Origin: Pelodera strongyloides
Taxonomy: Eukaryota; Nematoda; Chromadorea; Rhabditida; Rhabditidae
DNA: 64,000 nucleotides
Assembly (NCBI GenBank): GCA_036852015.1
Contig: JAANDG010000236.1
Coordinates: 124,001 to 188,000, forward strand
Direction of reading: 5' to 3'
Shown here: positions 13,360 through 34,300 of the stretch, one piece after another
Layout of the letters: every line of letters begins with the position of its first letter
Numbering within the stretch: position 1 is the first letter of the stretch
The notes under the pieces: model-generated
Seen by the model: only the letters and a program-made list of their open reading frames with translations
Database searches by the model: none
Told to the model about the DNA's origin: nothing
Position numbers and translations under genes: made by a program

Positions 13360-15636
13360 AGATTTCTGTATATTCCCTTTGTGAGATATTACCCCCTGTA
13401 TATATCCCAACTTATGTAGTGTGTTCCGTGCTGCTTTCTTCACTATGCTTTCTTCTCGTGTTATTATGTTTATGTACGCACCTCAGATAACTATATTGCA
13501 TTTCCGCTTCTCCCTAATAATGTAGTAGTTTATTGTACATATTATATATTTTCTCCTAGCTCTCGGCTTTATGTACGGCTTTCCACTACATATGTTGCCT
13601 TAATCCCTAATTAACATGTCGTGCTCTTCCAGATGTGTCCCGGTATCTTACCTTGTTACTGTTTTCGCAAAGAAATGTGGAACAAAAATCGATAAATATT
13701 TCTCTGTATTATTCGTGTTCATACAAAAAGCCAAAAACTAACTCACAAACAAACACACCAAAAATAATGATTTTGTTTCACTATGAGGTTTTCAAATTCA
13801 TATTGATAGAGGCACATTAATGGAAAAGTTCAAGCCAATACAATTAAACGCACCACAGAATTAGTCTTTCACAAATCTGACACATACCAAAGGAGAGTTT
13901 AGTCCTATCGGAACTGGCCTCTCAGCACACTCTTGAGTAGCTGCAATTCTTTTAAAAAGCTATGACCAAGTTATCTGTTATGAATTTATGGATAAGTATG
14001 CAACGCTCAACTAACTTCGGTAACAACACTACCGTCAAAAATGGTGGATTTGGTGAGCCTTTCTCGACCAAACTAAGATGATAGTACAAGAATTATAGAA
14101 TTCCTGTTTATAGAAATCGATTGCAGTTTATTAATTAAAAGGTTATGAAACATAAAAAGGGAAGAGGCCAAAAGATAAGGCCAATCAACCCTATTCCACC
14201 TCGGCCCTCAACGCGCTTTTGTGTTCTTTGTTGTTATGAATTTGTTTCAAAACGATACAATAATAACGATTACTTCTTTTATAATGTAGGTCTCTATTCA
14301 CATCCAGCCAGCAGTGGTCTGGATAGCCTTATGGTTAGCCTTTCTGCCGGGAGCATAAACAACTACATGCGCTCCTACAGACTTAATAAGGAACAAATTC
14401 ATATGACAAAATCTGGTCTGGCCCTCATTGTCAACCCTTTTTTGAGAAAGGACCACCAGACCAAAGAGTATTCGGAGGGCATTTAGCGACGTAGTAGAGC
14501 GTTGCAGCAGCCGCAAGTTAACTAGCCAATCTCGTTCAAGTTTCCGAATGACTTGTAGTCAAGCGAGTCTAATTTAGTTGACTTGTGTATTGGTATAAAC
14601 ATACAACGACTGTTTCATACAGTTGTCACCATAGATGGACCTGCCAATCCCGCGTCGGTATATTGTCTTCGCTGCTTTTCTTTTGCCTTGATGTTGACGG
14701 CAGCGCGACCACTGGTTGGATATGAAATTTAAAGCCGATTACAGTCATACATTCGGTATGACTGTCAACTGTATGAAACGGTTTTTCTACAAAACACAGC
14801 CATCGTGCCGTACGGTATAAAAAGGAACTTCAACATTATTATGGGTTAGCATGTAGGTCCTACGTCATAGCTACATGCTGGAAATAGTTAGTCATTTTTT
14901 GGTTAATTAATACAATTCGTTCCTCATCCCTTTTGTTAATCAAATGTTTGTCTTTTATCAGCACTATGAAGCAGTAAACTGACATAAAAGATGTTTTTAG
15001 GAAATTAGCCTATGATTGAATGAATGAGACCATAAATGAATGAATGATGAATGATGAATAAAGAGGAGTGAAATTGTAGCGTTAGTGATGAATACCAACA
15101 AAACTGAATAACAGTAAGCGATGGGCAATATAATTGTTGGCTTAAACTTCCTTTCGATATTGATGTGACGATTCGCGATGCTTCGATCTTGGTAAATGTA
15201 GAAACACTACAGTGGATAACACAACACACATGCAAACACTTTCGCACACACACACATGCACATTAAAAATACATGCATACACACATGTTATTACGGTGCC
15301 TAACATGAAAATACCCGAGCCGAATCAGTTCTGAGCTGTGACCCCACACTACTCAACCAACGTTTCATTCGCCTATCATCAACTCTAGAAGTGCATGCAT
15401 ACATACCAGTGAGAAATCTTCTTCTAGGAAAGCAACAATTGTATGAAAGTCCAGCCAAAGTCTCGCAGCATTGAACAGGTGAAAAAAAGAATAGTCCGCT
15501 CTCCGCTCTCCAAGCCTTACATGCTCGTGCAAACCATCTTCCGTTCACAATTTATGTAGTAAATAAACTGTGCTTAGTACTGCGCCTCGAAAGTTCATAA
15601 ACAAAAGTACTTTCCAAAGCAAAAAAAAAAACAATT
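13360..15636. other. Intergenic, no gene seen
   Basis: The first 280 bases are the 3' flank shared with copy A. The rest is AT-rich with short open frames that lack splice context or similarity to each other. A low-complexity AATGA-type run lies near 15,020-15,060 and a CA-rich run near 15,230-15,290. The segment 14,300-14,500 has balanced composition but no recognisable product. Confidence 0.45.
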
Positions 15637-15716
15637 AGGTTTCGCCAGTTTAATCCATAGACCTCTCGTACAGTATTAAAGTCGAGGGCGGCTCATCAGT
15701 ATGGAACCTCGACTTT
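15637..15716 (-). ncRNA. Rearranged hammerhead-ribozyme-like element, copy A
   Basis: Read on the minus strand, a 10-bp hairpin (AAAGTCGAGG with CCTCGACTTT) carries CCATA-CTGATGA-GCCG in its loop. After a 13-nt linker a second hairpin (AGGT with ACCT) carries C-TATGG, then a short linker, then TGGC-GAA. These are the three strands of a hammerhead core: CUGAUGA at 15,699-15,693, GAAA at 15,643-15,640, and cleavage triplet GUC at 15,662-15,660. Complementary flanks supply stem I (UAUGG/CCAUA), stem II (GCCG/UGGC with one G-U) and stem III (AGGU/ACCU). The strand order differs from hammerhead types I, II and III. Activity is inferred only; transcription is not shown. It lies 2.2 kb upstream of RGG gene 2, on the opposite strand. 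Confidence 0.6.
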
Positions 15717-15837
15717 TCAGGGTTTTCGCAAAAAAAAACATCTAACTGGTAGTTTAGCTCTTCAGCCTCCGTTTCCCATCAGTCCATCAAATGGAGGTAT
15801 GTACATTTGGGCTCTGTAATCGAAGTGGTGATCATTT

Positions 15838-16258
15838 GTTCACGACACTAGCAAAGAAATGCGCCAACGGCTTAAAGCCGACGTGCAAATGTCATAATAA
15901 TAAAAACAAAGAAATGTTGCGTACGTCAGTACGTGACCGCCAGGTTCGCATCCCGCATCCCGTGGTAGAGGTGGTGAAAGGTGGTTAACAGTGTATTGCA
16001 TCGTCCAGTGCTACAACCGGTTGAAAAAAAAACACAAAAACGTGCGTGTATGCCAAGCGGAAGTGTCTTTGTTCACAACACTAGTAAAGAAATGCACCAA
16101 CGGCTTAAAGCCGACGTGCAAATGTCACAACAATAAAAACAAAGAAATGTTGCGTGCGTAAGTAGGTGACCGCCAGGTTCGCATTCCGCATCCCGTGGTA
16201 GAGGTGGTGAAAGGTGGTTAACAGTGTATTGCATCGTCCAGTGCTATAGCCGGTTGTG
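15838..16258. repeat. Tandem duplication, two units of about 185 bp
   Basis: 15,840-16,019 and 16,074-16,254 are about 95% alike, sharing GCCAACGGCTTAAAGCCGAC and GGTAGAGGTGGTGAAAGGTG. A diverged spacer of about 50 bp separates them. The shared segment contains a short perfect palindrome-like word, CGGCTTAAAGCCG. No conserved reading frame covers both units, so it is treated as non-coding. Confidence 0.8.
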
Positions 16259-17007
16259 CGGATGGAATGTTCAATCTGTAACCATCATGACATTATCCAC
16301 TTGTGAGATACAGTAATTGTGGCTAGAAAATAGCAAATGCAAACAAGAGGAACCACCCAACTAACAGCCCATTTGAATACGCTCATAGGTATGGGCTAGT
16401 GATCAAACACAAACCAGCAACCACCAGAATTAGTCCTACATACCTGCTAAATCAATCACAAATTAGAGGTTGCTTCTATAATTGGTTGCCATATTCGCAT
16501 TCGGAGGTAAAGGCAATGTAAAGGCAGTGTGCGGAACTTGCAGGTCCACGCCCTATTGTTGCTTGTTCCAATGGCTGCTCCAACTGCAAAAAGCATAATC
16601 TTACCCAAATAACTAAAATTGCGCGATTACAAAAAAACACGAAGTAATGGCCAAATAAGAATGCTACTGCCCCATGTCATAGCGCACATGGGTATGGTTT
16701 AATAAATACCTACTCTAGGTTTAAAGGCACACCTAAAGCGTCCTTAGGCATTACCAGCGCAGGTTTGAATGCTAATGTTAAATAAGAAAACATTACTTAC
16801 CAAACTATTAACAATTTAGTTTCATGCAAGAAAGCAACATGCTCAGAATTTATGCGCATCTGTTAGAGTTGACATGGAAAAGCGGTATACACTGTGAACG
16901 TATGCGGCAGCCTCAGAGGTAATGTTTGGGATAAAACCCGCATTGGAAGCAAAGAGCCGCACAGCTGGTTATAGAAAGAACATTCCTAGCAAAGAAATTC
17001 ATAGAAC
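16259..17007. other. Intergenic, no gene seen
   Basis: AT-rich DNA without coding exons, large repeats or RNA signatures that I can identify. Confidence 0.4.
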
Positions 17008-17090
17008 GAGGTTTCGCCAGTTTAATCCATAGACCTCTTTTACTTGTGTTGAAAGTCGAGGGCGGCTCATCAGTATGGAACCTCGACTTT
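17008..17090 (-). ncRNA. Rearranged hammerhead-ribozyme-like element, copy B
   Basis: This has the same architecture as copy A. The 10-bp hairpin is at 17,090-17,052 with CUGAUGA at 17,073-17,067. A diverged linker follows, and the second hairpin runs from about 17,036 to 17,008, with GUC at 17,034-17,032 and GAAA at 17,015-17,012. Predicted cleavage would fall between 17,032 and 17,031. All core bases and stems I and II are identical to copy A. Stem III gains a fifth pair (GAGGU/ACCUC). The linker between the hairpins differs completely, and so do the flanks. Such a pattern is expected for a structured RNA or a small mobile element rather than for a simple segmental duplication. Confidence 0.6.
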
Positions 17091-17489
17091 ACGACAAACA
17101 ATAATTTTGTAACCACAAGTGAAGCATTTACGAAAAACTGATAAGAGCATATGATCAATCGTCGACGTCTATTCATACAATGGACCGGTCGTATTTAAAT
17201 ATTCCTGGTAAATAAGCCATCGGTAGCGTAGCGGGCAAGACACATTTGGTGCCTCGGGACGTTTTCGTTCCCTCTTAACTCTAAACGGATAGATTGACAT
17301 TCGTTAACAACATACGCGAACAACTTAGGCGCTATCTAATTAGGAAAGAATAAAAAAAACAATGGAAATCAAAAGCGGATCAAAAGGAAGATAGGCACGT
17401 TTGAAAGTCTGCCCCATTGTTCGGACTCAATAAAGTTCCGACATATGATAAGGTCTGAAAATATACGTATTAAATATAAGGTGTATTAA
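17091..17489. other. Spacer, no gene seen
   Basis: AT-rich. A stretch at 17,222-17,270 resembles a tRNA A box (TAGCGTAGCGGGC), but no matching acceptor stem or clear B box was found. Confidence 0.35.
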
Positions 17490-17937
17490 ACATGCATCAC
17501 AAACCCTACTGATTATCTACTATTGGCAATTAAGAGAACTGTAATGTGTGAAGCCAAAAATAAGTCGACCACGAACCACTGCCAGCGGCTCTTTATTGCT
17601 TCAAACACTTCTGTACGGCACTTCTGTTTTATGTTCAAAAATCTAATGGCAAGTTAACTTTAACGCTCCCTGTTAGCCGCCATACAATGGAATAACATCC
17701 ACCGAGTGCATTAACAAGAAAGAGTACGCAAGCATACAAGTCACATGTTATTCGGGTGCATATGCGTAATTTGAAGCAAAACGTGTAGTTGAACTGGAGC
17801 TTGAATTTTTTTGCAGAATTGCTTGTGCTTTGAACTTTCTATCTTCCTTTGTTTTCCGTCCAATACGTTGTTTATTATTTCCGAGTTTCCAAATAATCCG
17901 TTAGTAAAGATGACAGAAAAGCAATGTTTCAGCCAGA
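17490..17937 (+). promoter_or_regulatory. Conserved upstream region of RGG gene 2 (matches 21,030-21,450)
   Basis: About 430 bases align with the upstream region of RGG gene 3. Shared words include TGGAAT...CCA, GTACGC, ACATACAAGTC and TGTAGTTGAAC, in the same order and spacing. An acceptor-like TTTCAG lies 6 bases before the ATG here and 4 bases before it in gene 3. This suggests a 5'-UTR intron or spliced-leader acceptor. Conservation could be regulatory or simply recent duplication. Confidence 0.55.
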
Positions 17938-18990
17938 ATGAGCTCTTCAAGGACTCAACGGACGCAAAGAAGCGCTCGCCGGGCTCAAACGGCCCCCACA
18001 ACTGGTTAGTTCTAAGCCAAAATATACTTAACGAATGATTTTTGGTACCTATTAGGTCTTAAGTCTGTCTTAAGTTGAAGACAGTTTTTCAATCAATCTA
18101 CTTTGTTTGCTAAGAAGCGCACACCGAAGAACCGAAATAAAATTACCCTTTTTAGCTGGTTTCACAGCCCTTTCCCTGCTTTCAACATCCTCGGGAATCC
18201 GAGCGCGGTCCTCAACAGCATCCGTAACTGTAGTCCCCTCCGGTAAGATTTCGTCAAAGCTGCGCCCGATACCAGACTAAAAGTCAACGTCAAATTCCGT
18301 GTGCACTTTTGATACCTAAGAATTCGTCTAGCAATTTATACACCAAAACTGTAGTGGCTCACGCCAAGGTTATGCAATTAAGCGTATTTTGTAGCAGAAT
18401 AAGCATAGAAATTCTACTTGATCATGTGGGAATTATTTTTAGGTTCGCATTCCTATCCGCTGCGGTCGAGGGGCCCACCGCCCTTATTGCCCCGCACACA
18501 GGCTTATGTGCTACGACCACGGGTATCGACTGAGGCAGTGGCTGCGAGATCAATTGCGCGGACGCCGCCAGCTGTAGGCCGCTCTCGTGGAGCTGCAGCG
18601 GCTCGGGGTGGCCGAACCTCAACCGCCACCCGTAGTAGCACCGGTACTCGTGGTGCTACCGCGACTCGTGGTCGCGGTAACACAGCGCAACCGGCACGCG
18701 GACGTGGTCGTGGTCGTGGCTCGGCCACCCCTGCTGCCACAGTCCCTCGTGGTGGTCAGACAGGTGGGGGAGGAAGACGTGGAGGAAGAGCTCGAGCACA
18801 GCAATCACGTGGCGGACGTGGTGGGAATGCAGGACGAGGTCGTGGGCATGCAGGACGTGGTCGTGGGAATTCAGGACGTGGTGGTGGTGGTGGACACGCA
18901 GGTCGTGGTGCTCGTGCGGCTGGAAATGGACGCGTTGCCGGACGTGGAGCAGGGTTCACAACCCGTGGCGGAAAGGGAGGACGCCGTTAA
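17938..18990 (+). CDS. RGG/GAR-rich basic protein, paralogue 2 (three exons)
   Basis: Exons 17,938-18,004, 18,156-18,242 and 18,443-18,990 join in phase 1 twice, giving about 233 residues. Exon 1 encodes MSSSRTQRTQRSARRAQTAP. Exon 2 encodes GFTALSLLSTSSGIRARSS and more. Exon 3 begins YPLRSRGPPPL, then YVLRPRVS and SIARTPP, and then a long Arg/Gly/Ala tail rich in RGRG and RGG. The layout and motifs match paralogues 1 and 3, with paralogue 3 closest. The function is unknown; composition suggests nucleic-acid binding. The start is chosen because exons 1 of genes 2 and 3 have the same length (67 bp), the same phase and the same acceptor-like site just upstream. Confidence 0.75.
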
Positions 18991-19239
18991 TTTGTCTCTA
19001 TGGATAAATGTTGTTAACTGTGAGTCTGTGATGGGCAGTTGGCTCTTGGCTTATATGTTTGACTCCACATTAACTTAAAGGAAACGCGTGGAAGAAAAAG
19101 AAGAAAAATAACCAGCCATTCCTATTTATTGAAAAAGTAGTAAAGTCATACCTTTTTTCCTAATGTATAGGAGAGCAAATGGAGCAACGCGATGTATTCA
19201 CGGAACATCCTGAAAGACAGAAATGAAGTAACGTATACC

Positions 19240-28343: not shown

Positions 28344-31300
28344 TTAAGCAAAAACTGGAATGGCCGACTCTCCCTGAGGCATCAAGTATTTGTCCAAATC
28401 TTCATCTTCAGCAACTTTTTTGGTGCTTTTTTCTTCGATTGCGTCATTCATCTTATTTGGCCCTGAAACCATTAATTTCGCACAAAACGTTGAAAACTAA
28501 AGTATTCAATACCATATCTAGTATGTACGTCACAAGTTGCCAAACTGATATATGTGGTTCCATATTTATTCTTTGTTTCCATTCAATCATTTACCTATGT
28601 CGATGAAATACAATTCTTCATCAATGACAGGTTCTGGAACATCAGACATGGGCTCGTCAAATTTAGTTGAACTCAATTTCTTGCAGCTTCCCTGAAAATG
28701 TATTGTTTATATCATAAGAAGTGGGAAAGAGGTTGTTTATCGTTTTGCCTGTTGCTTGCATATAATGAAACAGTGAACAAAAAAAGTATAACTCCGTACC
28801 TGATCACCCTTCTTATTAAAGTCCATGTCCAATTCAAAACTGGGTTTGCAAGTGCAAGTCACAGTCTTTTCCGAACAATAAGCATTATTGACCAAACATC
28901 TGAAAAACACTGTTGTTTATTAAGACTGGAATAGATTGCTCATCTTTTTATGGCGAAAGAAAGGCAAATGTGCGTTTTAGGATTGGTTTTGCTTTAAAAC
29001 AATGAGTTTATGGCGTATTCTGTTGCGCACCGGAACCATCGCTGACCTTTTCTCTTCAATTAAAGTATCTAGGCAGTATCCACCAATTGTTCCATTTGAT
29101 CTCTCATCAACGGAGTCCATGAATATTACAGTTGTAGGGTCGTAACATCTAAAAAAAAACCAAGTTTAATAAAATAAAGTGCGCTAAAATAATCGGAAAG
29201 AAGGCAAATAGTATAATGTAGCTTGCGTCTACCTTCCAGCAATGTTCGAGAATCCCTCTGGGCATGAGGAAACGCATTTCGACTCATGTACGAGCGGCTT
29301 GGCAGCAGGACAAATACAGTATCTGAAACACAATTTTTAATTTTCAAAGAGCTCCGCTCAATGATAAATCGTTCTTTTTTTCAGAAAATTCTATCAGCCA
29401 TAACTGCCAAAGGACGATATTCTCAGTGTTTTTATATATTTGGGCTAGGCGCAGCCTAGCCCTTTTTGGTTTGGAAGTAATGTTTTTTTCTTACCCGCTA
29501 TCACATGAGGCATTCGGCTCGCGTGACGCGCATTGATCATCGGAAATACATCCCTTTTGGCCAACGTATAACACTGAAAATATGTTTTATGTAGGCCGAC
29601 ACCTACGGCATTTCACCTCGTTGTATACTTTGTTTCCCTTCATACTCGTGACAGTCGACAAACGCAACCACTCACCCTTGAGGCACTTTCCGTCGATCAT
29701 GTAGAAACCGAACGGACACTCTCCCGTCTGGTTACCGGATGTTTGAATGGTACTGGTGTTAGTTCCAAGTACTGTCTTAGTGCCGTTATTTGATCCGGTT
29801 GTATTTGTGGGGATAATCGAGACTGCTGTTCCTGTCGAGCAACACTGCCAACGGTTGACCTGCAGAAGCAACAGTTAGTATACAACACCTTTCGGTCTTA
29901 GTGGAAAAAAAATGTTGGAAGAAACTTGAAAATGTACCTCATCAGCAAACAAGCATGCAAATCCAGTTGGACAAGGAGTGGAGTCACATGTGACAGCACT
30001 TCTATCAGAACCGACGAGCGGTTTCGAGCCAGCAGGACATCCTTGAAGATCATGCGACGAGAAACGCATTTGTTGAGCAATCTGCAATAAACAATGAGCT
30101 AGACGAAACCAATATGCAAAATGTAAGATAATACTATATATGAGGTGCCTTCATTGGGGTTTGTGCACAGTTGTCACGGTTACTTTTAGTATTTAAGAAA
30201 TAACGATTAGGTAATGGGGTTTACCGATTCTCCCAGCTTCTTTGCCTTTTCAACTTCATCCTCCGCGCCTCCAATCACTTCCCATTCTGACGTGGTTTTG
30301 CCTAAAGGAAACATATTTTTACGTTGGGGAAGACACCAAGACGTAGAAAACCGATGAAAACTTTCGCCATGTGTTTGAAATCAAATGCATGTTGTGCTCC
30401 TCTATCCAGATCCACAGACTTACCTGATTTCTTATTGGCCAATTGTTGCTGAAGGAGTCTTTCTCGCTGCATTGCCAGCATGGCTAATTGACGACCCTTT
30501 TCCATTTCCTAAACAATCAACAGTGTATTTACATCACAATAATGAGGTAACTTAACACCTATGGTGTTGTAGTCGATGTACACATACCTTCTTTTCAAGG
30601 TCCGAGATACCAACAGCCGGGACAATTTTCCCTGGGGTGGGCATGGTGACCACCTTCATATTGCCCATTCCATTGTTGAAACCGTTGTTGAATCCATTGT
30701 TTCCAAAATTGTTATTGACAGAAAACCCGTTTCCATTTCCGAATTTACTGCGGAAGTTGTTGTTTCCGTTTCCAAAGTTTGCTGAAATAATCGTATGATT
30801 TGTAACGTACGTTCTTTAAATATAAATTCTTGTAAAAATGAGATTATTGATCCGTAAATACATTTGTAGAGTTCAAACAAGTTAGCAAAAACGCTTACTA
30901 TGGTTAAATAGTTAAAAACCCACATAGTTTGCTCATTGATCCCATGGTCGAGATGGAGGGATGGTATTGCCTAGCGGCAGAATCAATTGGAGCACAACAG
31001 AAAGAATCCTGCGGGAAATATATTTTGGATATGTTGGTAGAGAGCTCTTTTTTTTTGCAGGAGCGTTTTTTGCTGATAAAGGTACCAAGATAAAAGTTGA
31101 AAACAACTCGTTTACTTGTCATTAGCGACTTACTTGCTTTTCCGCTGAATATATACACACGTAAGGGGCGTTATTTGGACAAGGTTTCAGGCTCATGTGA
31201 CAGGGAACGGCATCTCCATAGTAGTCTACGTGCGGAATCTGACGCGGAGGACAGAAACCTAAAGATTTCTATTGAAACTCTGCTACGTTAGCTTTGTACG

Positions 31301-34300
31301 ACTGCTTAAGAAGTAATACCAAAGAGGCATCCAGCCATGAAACAAATTGTGGTTCATATCTAACCGGCATATTGCTCGTCCAGATCGTCTTGAGTACAGC
31401 AAATGAATTGTCCGGGAAGGGTGCTTTCCAGACAGTGATGTCCCACTGGGCAATTGTCCCTGAGAGGTGAACAATACTGCACCTCATTTGAGTGGGAGTC
31501 GCGATACGTGGTTCCTTAAAATTGATAGGACGAATAATTTATTTGTTTTAGGTACTCGATTCTTATGTGCTAAAATCACATATTCGAAAAGCTTCTTCAT
31601 ATTGGCACATTATGTCTTGCATACCACTGGCGCAGGTGGGTCCCTTTGGTGTACTTCCGTCAGAACAGCAGAGATGGTGAAGTGGATTTAATGAAGGGAC
31701 GCATGAAAATCCAGATGGGCACTTAGTACTACCAGGAGGGCAGGCTAGAGGCCGACCTCCGTACTCAAAAGGTTTGGCATTTGCCGGACATTTGATGGTT
31801 TCCAAGTCAGCGCAACAGACCGCAACACCAGCATTGGAGAATTCGCACCTGAAAGTGACAATGAATATATGCTCCATTTTTATGTAAATATGATGGTGCG
31901 GCATAATTTTCTCCGAAAGCCTCGTTTAAAAATTAAATGAGCATGTAAATTACATAATGCACTTAACATGAAGACACAAACTCACTTGAATCCTCCGGGA
32001 CACTCGCCAACCTTTGGCTGCATCACGTTGCACTGCATCACCATATTGTTGTCGTCTCTACAATTGTTAACCGTACGCAAGCATGGTCGATAAATGAATA
32101 TACAATTCTAGTGAAACAAATTGCTCATTCAAGGGATAAAAACGACAGTACCTGTACGGCCTATCTCCATTCTTGCACCTTCCCGCAACGCTCTCATGGA
32201 TGGAATTCGCGCCCATGCTACCGAGTTTTCTGTTGAAGGTATTTTCGTTGGTAGTGCCCATTCCATTGAAGTTTCCGAGCATTCCGGGTTTATGTCCGAA
32301 TCCTTTGCCAAACTTGTTGTTTTCATTTTCCCATGAGTTGCCCGTTCCAAAATTGTTGCCTCCGAATGTGTTCACGTTTCCATTCTTCGCCATTCCAGCG
32401 TTATACAATCGGCAGCAAATCTTCACATCCGGAATGTTAGTGTTCTGACACTTGGCGTCCGAGGGGCAACCGTACTCACCAGTCTCGCAAATTTGAACCT
32501 GAAGAACAAACACACTACAATAGTGGGTTTTTCAGGGCATCAAGGGTACAAAACAGGCTCAATGCGTTCTGCTGTTGAGCATGGTCACATTCTAATTTAC
32601 CTGAGTGTCTGTGAGAAGCACAGGAATATGTCCCTTCTGGGCGCATCGTGGAATTGGAGCTCTACAGCAACTTCCGTCAGCATAGCCGTGCTGAAATAGA
32701 AAATTATATGTAGTTTTGGGATTTAGTTTTACGAAATTTTTGATATGTAGCATCTGATAAAACAACTCAAATTAGGCGAGTATTACCTCGAGATTTAGTT
32801 CACCTCTTTGGAAATCTTTTTATGAAACAGAGCACAAAAGTAACTTATAGAAACCGACCATTTTCATGCAAAGGTGCTCATCGGGACAACCATTGATGGC
32901 GTTTACGGTGCAAGTCATTCCATTGCTTTCCAAGTCAGAAGGACAAGGGGATTGACCGAGAAGAGCAGCCAACGAAGACGAACTTCCACCTAACAACACG
33001 TTAACTTTATAATCACCAAATGATTGTGTCGCTAACATTTTGCTTCGGAAGCTTAGAATTTCTTCAGTAGAACATAATTAGCAAATGAGAAAGATTATTA
33101 CAGGAAATTCTTCTATATAAAAAGCATTTTTGGCGACAGCACCTCTGTTCTTGCTGGAACCTCTAGAACGGCCTCCCTTTTGTGGTCGCTGCTGATTTGT
33201 GATTGAATTGGGATTTGAAGATGAAGAACAGCAGAGATGGAATCCGGCAATTGTTCCGCTTTCCAAACACACATTTCCGCGCGGACAAGTATCATTCTCG
33301 ATGTTGCATGCAACAACAGATGTCGAACCTGAAACACAGGTTTTTCATTTTTGCCGACTTTTTGAATATCATCAGACTTCGCTTTATCTACATATTACTG
33401 CTCTAATCCTGAAGTCACTCAATTAATAAACGAAAAACAATAAGTATTTTGAATCTACAATCTCACCAGGAATATTGTACGGATGTCTTCCTTCAGGGCA
33501 CGAATGGACAGTCTGACAGCAGATCGGAATATTGGATGTAGAACGCACACAGGATGACGAAGCAGGGCAACTGCCTCGCACATTTAAGGTGCATGACTGA
33601 ACAATTCATAGAATGATATATCTTACACCTAGCCTTTGCAGAGCTATTATTTGTCAATGAATTTTAACTCATATGTATAAATAAATATAAATTGGTACAA
33701 ACCTTTGGTGCAATATCTCCTGGCTCCACAAATGCAGTCATTCCCCTTGGACACTGACCAACAGTACTGGCCTGTAGACAGGTGGCACTGCATATCGTTT
33801 GCGAAGTGAAACGGTTTGAGGTTCCTCCGCATCCTGAACCACAAAATTTTAACTTCCAAAAAAATTGTACGGTTACCCTAATAGAGAGAAAGCAAGGTGT
33901 TGATTATTAGGGCAAAATTTGTCGTCTAATCTAAAATAGCACCAGTCTTGGAAACATAATTATGTGACTCGAGCAACTAATCAATAAACCGAGCTCAACT
34001 AACCGTTGTACAAGAATTGTCTGCAGTTCTGCTGTGCTGTATCATAGTACCACATGGTTCTTGGAGCAGTTCCAGCACAAACATTTCCGCGAGACATTGA
34101 AGCTCCGCATGCTGTTTCTGCAAAAGTAGGCAATTGAATCTGTTTTACGTTTATTCACATTAGTAGTATAAACAAACATGGGGTTTGCCTACTTCGCTTA
34201 TAGAAAACGTTAATCAACCCGGAAATGTTAGTTGTTGAGCTTGAACTCACTGGTCTCAGGGCAGCAGTAACCTTCTGGGTTGCATGTGTAACCGTCAGGA

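Follow-up and report, generated by a model that had tools for sequence, protein, structure and literature searches.

A probable self-cleaving hammerhead ribozyme in the permuted CSG order, and its relatives, in the genome of the nematode Pelodera strongyloides

Background

A stretch of 64,000 nucleotides from Pelodera strongyloides (contig JAANDG010000236.1, positions 124,001 to 188,000; referred to herein as the window) raises the question of whether an animal genome holds a hammerhead ribozyme with its core in a scrambled order. An earlier note, made from the letters of the window alone, had placed the hammerhead elements on the minus strand at 17008-17090, with stems I and II formed between the loops of two hairpins and a predicted cut between 17032 and 17031, and had called this connectivity undescribed. 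That last claim is wrong, since the arrangement had already been published as type CSG by Eckert et al. in 2023 (PMC10085705).

Eckert et al. named the three blocks of the hammerhead C, S and G, and predicted 583 sequences of type SGC. Type CSG is a non-circular permutation, known from two similar metagenomic sequences, CSG-1 and CSG-2, which cleave in vitro as single-unit transcripts at rates of 0.004 and 0.026 per min. In that account, biological support for type CSG was weaker, as there were few covariation events in two sequences, and, one bacterial GCS candidate apart, the permuted types had not been located in the genome of any known organism (PMC10085705). Among the papers listed by our literature search, no later one names type CSG, and PMC10085705 is the only one that names CSG or SGC hammerheads; two ARTEM papers mention the permutation. 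Within the literature searched, a CSG hammerhead in an animal genome appears to be new.

We describe herein 21 CSG copies from an animal whose kind can be identified; all of their stems covary, and SGC relatives with shared sequence accompany them. Because of these copies and relatives, two questions become directly testable in this genome: do living organisms use the permuted order, and by what route does one order become another?

Results

The hammerhead core is complete and runs C-S-G

The contig that carries the window is named C236 herein, and the genome comprises 160 Mb. Read directly on the minus strand, the core of the flagged element runs CUGAUGA, cleavage site, GAA, which is the order CSG and none of the orders of the conventional types I, II and III (CGS, GSC and SCG). 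Each hammerhead element named in the earlier note was found where that note had put it (Table 1), and every invariant core base is in place in both window copies; we take the invariant core to consist of C3, U4, G5, A6, G8, A9, G12, A13 and A14, the pairs G10.1-C11.1 and A15.1-U16.1, and H17. The 19-nt loop of hairpin P0 carries UCCAUA, CUGAUGA and GCCG. Stem I had been given as 5 bp plus (A)/(U); the additional pairing is present, and UAUGGA/UCCAUA can be counted as 6 bp. Stem II (GCCG/UGGC) has 4 bp and stem III (GAGGU/ACCUC) 5 bp, the latter being 4 bp in the second window copy (15716-15637). The UUAAAC linker is exact in the five complete copies of C236, in four copies of the C84 type and in three SGC copies, and is similar in the remaining copies.

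Table 1. Features of the flagged element and its relatives; positions are those of the window unless a contig is named
Feature	Position	Strand	Evidence
Complete type-CSG hammerhead ribozyme, copy a_right	17008-17090 (C236:141008-141090)	minus	read letters, descriptor scan, copy comparison
5' arm of 10-bp hairpin (P0)	17081-17090	minus	letters; P0 covaries across families
Stem I 3' strand, UCCAUA	17074-17079	minus	letters and covariation
Block C, CUGAUGA	17067-17073	minus	letters and comparison of relatives
Stem II 5' strand, GCCG	17063-17066	minus	letters and covariation
3' arm of P0	17052-17061	minus	letters
Variable linker, block C to block S, 13 nt	17039-17051	minus	sequence and length differ between copies
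Stem III 5' strand, GAGGU	17033-17037	minus	letters and covariation
Predicted cleavage site after C17 (17032)	between 17032 and 17031	minus	hammerhead chemistry and CSG site described in PMC10085705
Stem I 5' strand, UAUGGA	17026-17031	minus	letters and covariation
Linker UUAAAC between stem I and stem II strands	17020-17025	minus	shared among copies
Stem II 3' strand, UGGC	17016-17019	minus	letters and covariation
GAA and stem III 3' strand ACCUC	17013-17015 and 17008-17012	minus	letters and covariation
Second complete type-CSG ribozyme, copy b_right; predicted cut between 15660 and 15659	15637-15716	minus	descriptor scan, copy comparison
CSG copies (21)	C236 (five), C84, C174, C319, C662, C15 (two), C220 (two), C31, C6, C116, C137, C251, C376, C511, C826
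Six-copy CSG family	C116, C137, C251, C376, C511, C826
SGC ribozymes (3)	C15, C220, C31

Chance controls and database searches

Run over the window, a descriptor for each of the six block orders (CUGANGAG, CGAAA, minimum stem length 4 bp) reported only the two copies at 17090-17008 and 15716-15637. In 400 dinucleotide-preserving shuffles of the window, it reported no CSG match and one SGC match. A looser descriptor (stems of at least 3 bp), run over the whole 207-kb contig, gave one extra CSG-order match on the minus strand at about window position 29957 (C236:153957; stems of 5, 3 and 6 bp), the sequence of which is unrelated to the other copies, and one SCG-order match. Both are probably due to chance.

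Rfam gave no match in the 15 sources scanned, and a whole-genome search with RF00163 was empty, as were its controls. UGAUGA resembles box C of snoRNAs; a C/D-box snoRNA was rejected, the only Rfam match in 14000-19000 being SNORD74 at 15045 with an E value of 8.5. No match was found in GTDB genomes with one pattern, in plasmids, or in viral contigs with two specific patterns and one S-G pattern. A looser pattern returned 16 loci in viral contigs, eight of which had descriptor matches (10 CGS and one GSC), with neither CSG nor SGC order among them. These matches from IMG/VR (L077, L078, L080, L081, L084, L085, L086 and L090) are type I (CGS) hammerhead-like; L078 and L085 have two CGS matches each, and L085 also has the GSC-order match.

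Copies on the contig of the window

C236 holds five complete copies, one broken copy and two remnants that retain just the 3' block; the covariance model R1, run over the 207-kb contig, found all of these and one further match of 10.5 bits (E 7.1). Among the five complete copies, the 5' hairpin block is invariant in 38 of 39 columns and the 3' block in 30 of 30, whereas the linker and the outer flanks vary. The two b copies are identical over the element (82/82), with matching flanks in 194 of 200 and 180 of 208 columns. The ribozyme region of C236 is an old duplication with inverted pieces. The two S-G remnants, which share one history and represent one duplicated event, have no block C and have lost A15.1 and one stem II pair.

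On C236, 82 nt are identical between copies with unrelated flanks, which suggests local gene conversion, and conversion between the copy at 121336 and the b copies is likely. Identity among the C236 copies alone is thus no proof of selection. Conservation by gene conversion alone was nevertheless rejected, because copies a and b have different linkers between their conserved blocks, a difference that a single conversion tract would have erased. The stems show no covariation among the C236 copies, so that structural support comes from other contigs. Neither known terminal repeats nor a transposase was found around 15637-17090 of the window or near the C236 copies.

Several rearrangements were observed in this region. 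At C236:118329-118389 (positions 329-389 of locus L010), a 107-nt tandem duplication stops one base past the predicted cleavage site and has left behind the broken copy, in which block C is followed by only part of block S. Beside the 121336 ribozyme, 167 nt (C236:121159-121325) are 97.6% identical to 103866-104032, 17 kb away, where the descriptor reports no ribozyme; the 121336 locus is therefore a mosaic. Between the two window copies lies a 189-nt direct repeat (15835-16023 and 16068-16256), 94% identical with a spacing of 233.

Relatives across the genome

Pattern searches of the whole genome gave 21 complete CSG ribozymes and three in SGC order, which by sequence fall into at least six families. 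Both counts are minima, since the patterns tolerate no more than three mismatches across the core, the S-G linker and the stem portions that they specify. With stems I and II left mostly free, 14 S-G matches were obtained, including some on other contigs (reversed control, 4). A wider S-G pattern, which allows up to three mismatches and does not contain the CUGANGA block, gave 28 matches in the genome (reversed control, 3), seven in C236 and 21 elsewhere. A complementary CUGANGA hairpin lies near 19 of these 21, in CSG order in 16 cases and in SGC order in three; no CUGANGA block was found within the 300 bases fetched around the other two, on C38 and C124. The block-order descriptor had a match in 14 of the 16 fetched loci, versus a match of any kind in 23 of 1600 dinucleotide shuffles of those loci. 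With a C-block pattern, 19 matches were found (control, 0), 18 of which are part of a complete ribozyme. As a negative control, a pattern one base shorter between the blocks gave five matches (control, 2).

Hammerheads leave two core positions free, N7 and H17. Across the 24 ribozymes the core varies at these two only (N7, U or C; H17, C and once A), although the intact core in 24 of 24 is partly by construction, because the patterns and the parser favor intact cores. A P0-like hairpin of 6-12 bp surrounds block C in all 21 CSG and all three SGC ribozymes (best of 30 registers). Some relatives have weak stems: stem III is 3 bp in the C84 family, and stem II is 3 bp, with one terminal mismatch, in the SGC copies of C220 and C31.

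Compensatory changes in all stems

Stem I occurs as UAUGGA/UCCAUA, UAAGAU/AUCUUA, UAAGGU/ACCUUA, UAAGGU/AUCUUA, UAGGGU/ACCCUA, UAAGGC/GCCUUA and UGCGG/UUGCA, and stem II as GCCG/UGGC, GCCC/GGGC, GCCA/UGGC, GCCG/CGGC and GCCUCG/UGAGGC. Covariation was scored on 12 CSG copies, after nine that were identical or nearly so had been dropped from the 21. In this alignment, 96.2% of the cells in pairs are paired, versus 78.8% in shuffles. Both-sided changes occur at 13 of 22 pairs (stem I, 4; stem II, 1; stem III, 1; P0, 7), a count in which the row of the six-copy family is misaligned in P0. The covariation score was 0.468, versus 0.149 in shuffles; none of 500 shuffles reached it, and slid structures gave 0.116 at most. 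Relatedness among rows inflates shuffle tests of this kind, and the slid controls preserve it. When the C and S-G arms of eight stem combinations, in which the SGC copies of C15 and C220 are recent duplicates, were recombined, the observed 77 of 80 pairs was reached in 12 of 40,320 permutations.

The earlier note had proposed looking for compensatory changes in the three stems. These are present in stems I, II and III, and in P0, across the families of the genome, and absent within C236. The pattern that it had named as damaging, in which the core and the stems drift freely and only the hairpin is kept, was not seen; hairpin and stems change in a compensatory manner and the core stays, in searches that favor an intact core. 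Covariation among relatives elsewhere in the genome strongly supports the hammerhead reading, the rearranged order, the pairing of the two loops into stems I and II, and the predicted position of cleavage.

Probable transposon carriers

Several relatives appear to lie inside Mutator-like DNA transposons, a probable assignment made from sequence features. Ribozyme-carrying elements of about 1.1 kb on C662 (locus L044) and about 1.2 kb on C84 (L033) have terminal inverted repeats of 92 nt and up to 197 nt, respectively, and each is flanked by its own, different 9-bp target-site duplication (read by eye). The carrier unit of C220, about 2.1 kb long with terminal inverted repeats of 64 nt, is related to these two elements over 30 nt and shows no clear target-site duplication. 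The far ends of the elements on C15, C31, C174 and C319 were not found.

A homologous protein containing C2H2, 39-49% identical between families, is encoded in C319/C174, C15/C220 and C31; its ORF is split between frames in C220. Two later exons of C319, joined at a GT-AG intron, match PF10551 with E 9.4e-6 and 26.4 bits, just below the cut-off of 27.6, and two further Pfam families more weakly, also below the cut-off; one exon alone matches PF10551 with E 0.024. Protein searches with two transposase-like exons returned no relatives. No transposase was found in 1.3 kb at C6, which gave weak matches only, or in the flanks of the six-copy family at L073-L076, and 1.6 kb of C137 showed no known terminal repeat for that family.

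The position of the ribozymes in these elements follows a pattern. A sense ribozyme lies upstream of the transposase-like ORF, of type CSG in C319, C174 and C31 and of type SGC in C15 and C220, and splice-acceptor-like sequence stands just before the ATG in C15, C319 and C31 (judged by eye). Between exons 1 and 2 there are antisense ribozymes: two tandem CSG units in C15, with the same pair in C220, and one SGC unit in C31. Thus, comparing C15/C220 with C31, CSG and SGC exchange positions between the equivalent sites. In the C319 element, neither four word patterns nor the descriptor found an antisense ribozyme in intron 1. The 22-nt nematode spliced leader SL1 has 315 exact matches in the genome (control, 0), which marks the host as a nematode.

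The tandem antisense pairs span C15:227469-227654 and C220:97565-97750. N7 is U in one unit and C in the other, and pairing across the copies could also build the SGC, GCS or SCG order.

Discussion

As judged from the letters and their comparison, the element at 17008-17090 is very probably a genuine hammerhead ribozyme that cuts itself and has its parts in a rare, scrambled order. In the fold that we propose, the 5' block, CUGAUGA together with a strand of stem I and a strand of stem II, would be held in the 19-nt hairpin loop, and the 3' block, with the cleavage site, UUAAAC and GAA, in a loop closed by stem III. The two loops would pair to form stems I and II and thereby assemble an ordinary hammerhead core, with P0 joining the outer ends of these two stems. 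Such a core would cut after C17 by attack of the 2'-OH, leaving 2',3'-cyclic phosphate and 5'-OH ends. In the carriers, a sense ribozyme would sit between a terminal repeat and the transposase-like ORF of probable Mutator-like transposons. The window copies probably descend from such carriers or are what is left of them, preserved or homogenized in the old local duplication; descent of the C236 copies from a transposon carrier is the simplest history. We hold this explanation as a whole, a self-cleaving CSG hammerhead of two-loop fold whose family resides partly in probable Mutator-like transposons, to be highly probable.

Three other explanations were weighed. The fold may be an inactive relic, or be kept for another reason, for example because the RNA structure matters in itself or because the DNA is a transposase site, with cleavage not being its role. 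Cleavage of the element is so far a prediction, the window copies have neither transposon ends nor a transposase, and some relatives have the weak stems noted above, all of which would suit such an account. It is nonetheless unlikely in view of the compensatory changes in stems and hairpin around a core that is kept; pairing between separate blocks is not something that a DNA site should preserve, and it is the S-G remnants, devoid of block C, that have lost core bases. Even less probable, in our estimation, is that neighboring copies pair, in tandem or in trans, into a conventional order, such as SCG across a dimer, with the permuted order being incidental. C15 and C220 do have two CSG units about 100 nt apart, across which the descriptor reports SGC, GCS and SCG, and minimal animal type I hammerheads are described as possibly self-cleaving through dimers (PMC7761336). 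On the other hand, no second unit was present in the fetched stretch at C84, C174, C319, C662, C6 or the six-copy family, P0 covaries around block C as expected for a CSG fold acting in cis, and the published CSG-1 and CSG-2 need only a single unit for cleavage (PMC10085705).

A conserved hairpin repeat might also hold hammerhead-like words by coincidence, a concern raised by the look-elsewhere effect of an element picked by eye from 64 kb and by the two probable chance matches of the loose contig scan. The absence of any CSG match from 400 shuffled windows speaks against it, as does the missing block with complementary stems at 19 of the 21 S-G matches elsewhere, set against 23 of 1600 in shuffled loci. 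Shuffles and independent families together rule out a chance resemblance, to which we give hardly any weight.

The self-cleaving CSG hammerhead thus preferred can be compared with the known types. Some of the carriers resemble MULE DNA transposons in their long terminal inverted repeats and, in two elements, in 9-bp target-site duplications; C319 adds a PF10551-like match, just below the cut-off, across two exons. To our knowledge, no MULE with a self-cleaving ribozyme is known, and none was present among the literature matches listed. The type I hammerheads of Penelope-like elements, Terminons and animal retrozymes are also carried by mobile elements of animals; those have the CGS order and belong to retroelements, whereas ours have the CSG or SGC order and belong to probable DNA transposons with terminal inverted repeats (PMC7761336, PMC6431247).

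Closest in architecture are CSG-1 and CSG-2, which share the C-S-G order, two pseudoknots, a helix that connects stems I and II at their outer ends and, by analogy, the same cleavage position, in transcripts of 77-78 nt compared with 83 nt here; this likeness is drawn from the published description (PMC10085705). They are two similar metagenomic sequences, whereas here 21 copies with five stem I/II combinations and clear covariation come from one nematode genome. Type SGC (HRIMA-1 and variants, PMC10085705) is a circular permutation of CSG, and the SGC copies found here (C15, C220 and C31) have the UUAAAC linker and the C hairpin in common with the CSG copies. The published SGC linker is typically 3 nt; here it is 6 nt, and the copies lie in elements that encode a transposase-like protein.

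Tentatively, and with more doubt than confidence, one may suppose that permuted hammerheads are standard in a clade of nematode Mutator-like transposons and that CSG and SGC interconvert. A sense ribozyme in the leader, ahead of the splice acceptor that precedes the transposase ATG, could cut and so trim transcripts reading in from outside, with SL1 trans-splicing recapping the mRNA. An antisense ribozyme in intron 1 would cut antisense transcripts before exon 1 was covered, limiting double-stranded RNA and silencing. One order might turn into the other at the transposon sites through tandem duplication and loss. The roles in leader trimming and limitation of double-stranded RNA are the most speculative part of this proposal. 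A link with DNA transposons, at sense-leader and antisense-intron sites, would place self-cleaving RNA in a new setting and suggest a role not previously considered for it.

Two other features of the window were recorded. A Gly-Arg-rich ORF with no Pfam match lies past the ribozyme locus on the opposite strand (18409-18990, plus). Farther away, an ORF on the minus strand (31566-31925) encodes a lustrin cysteine-rich domain (PF14625), and a protein search with it gave one relative.
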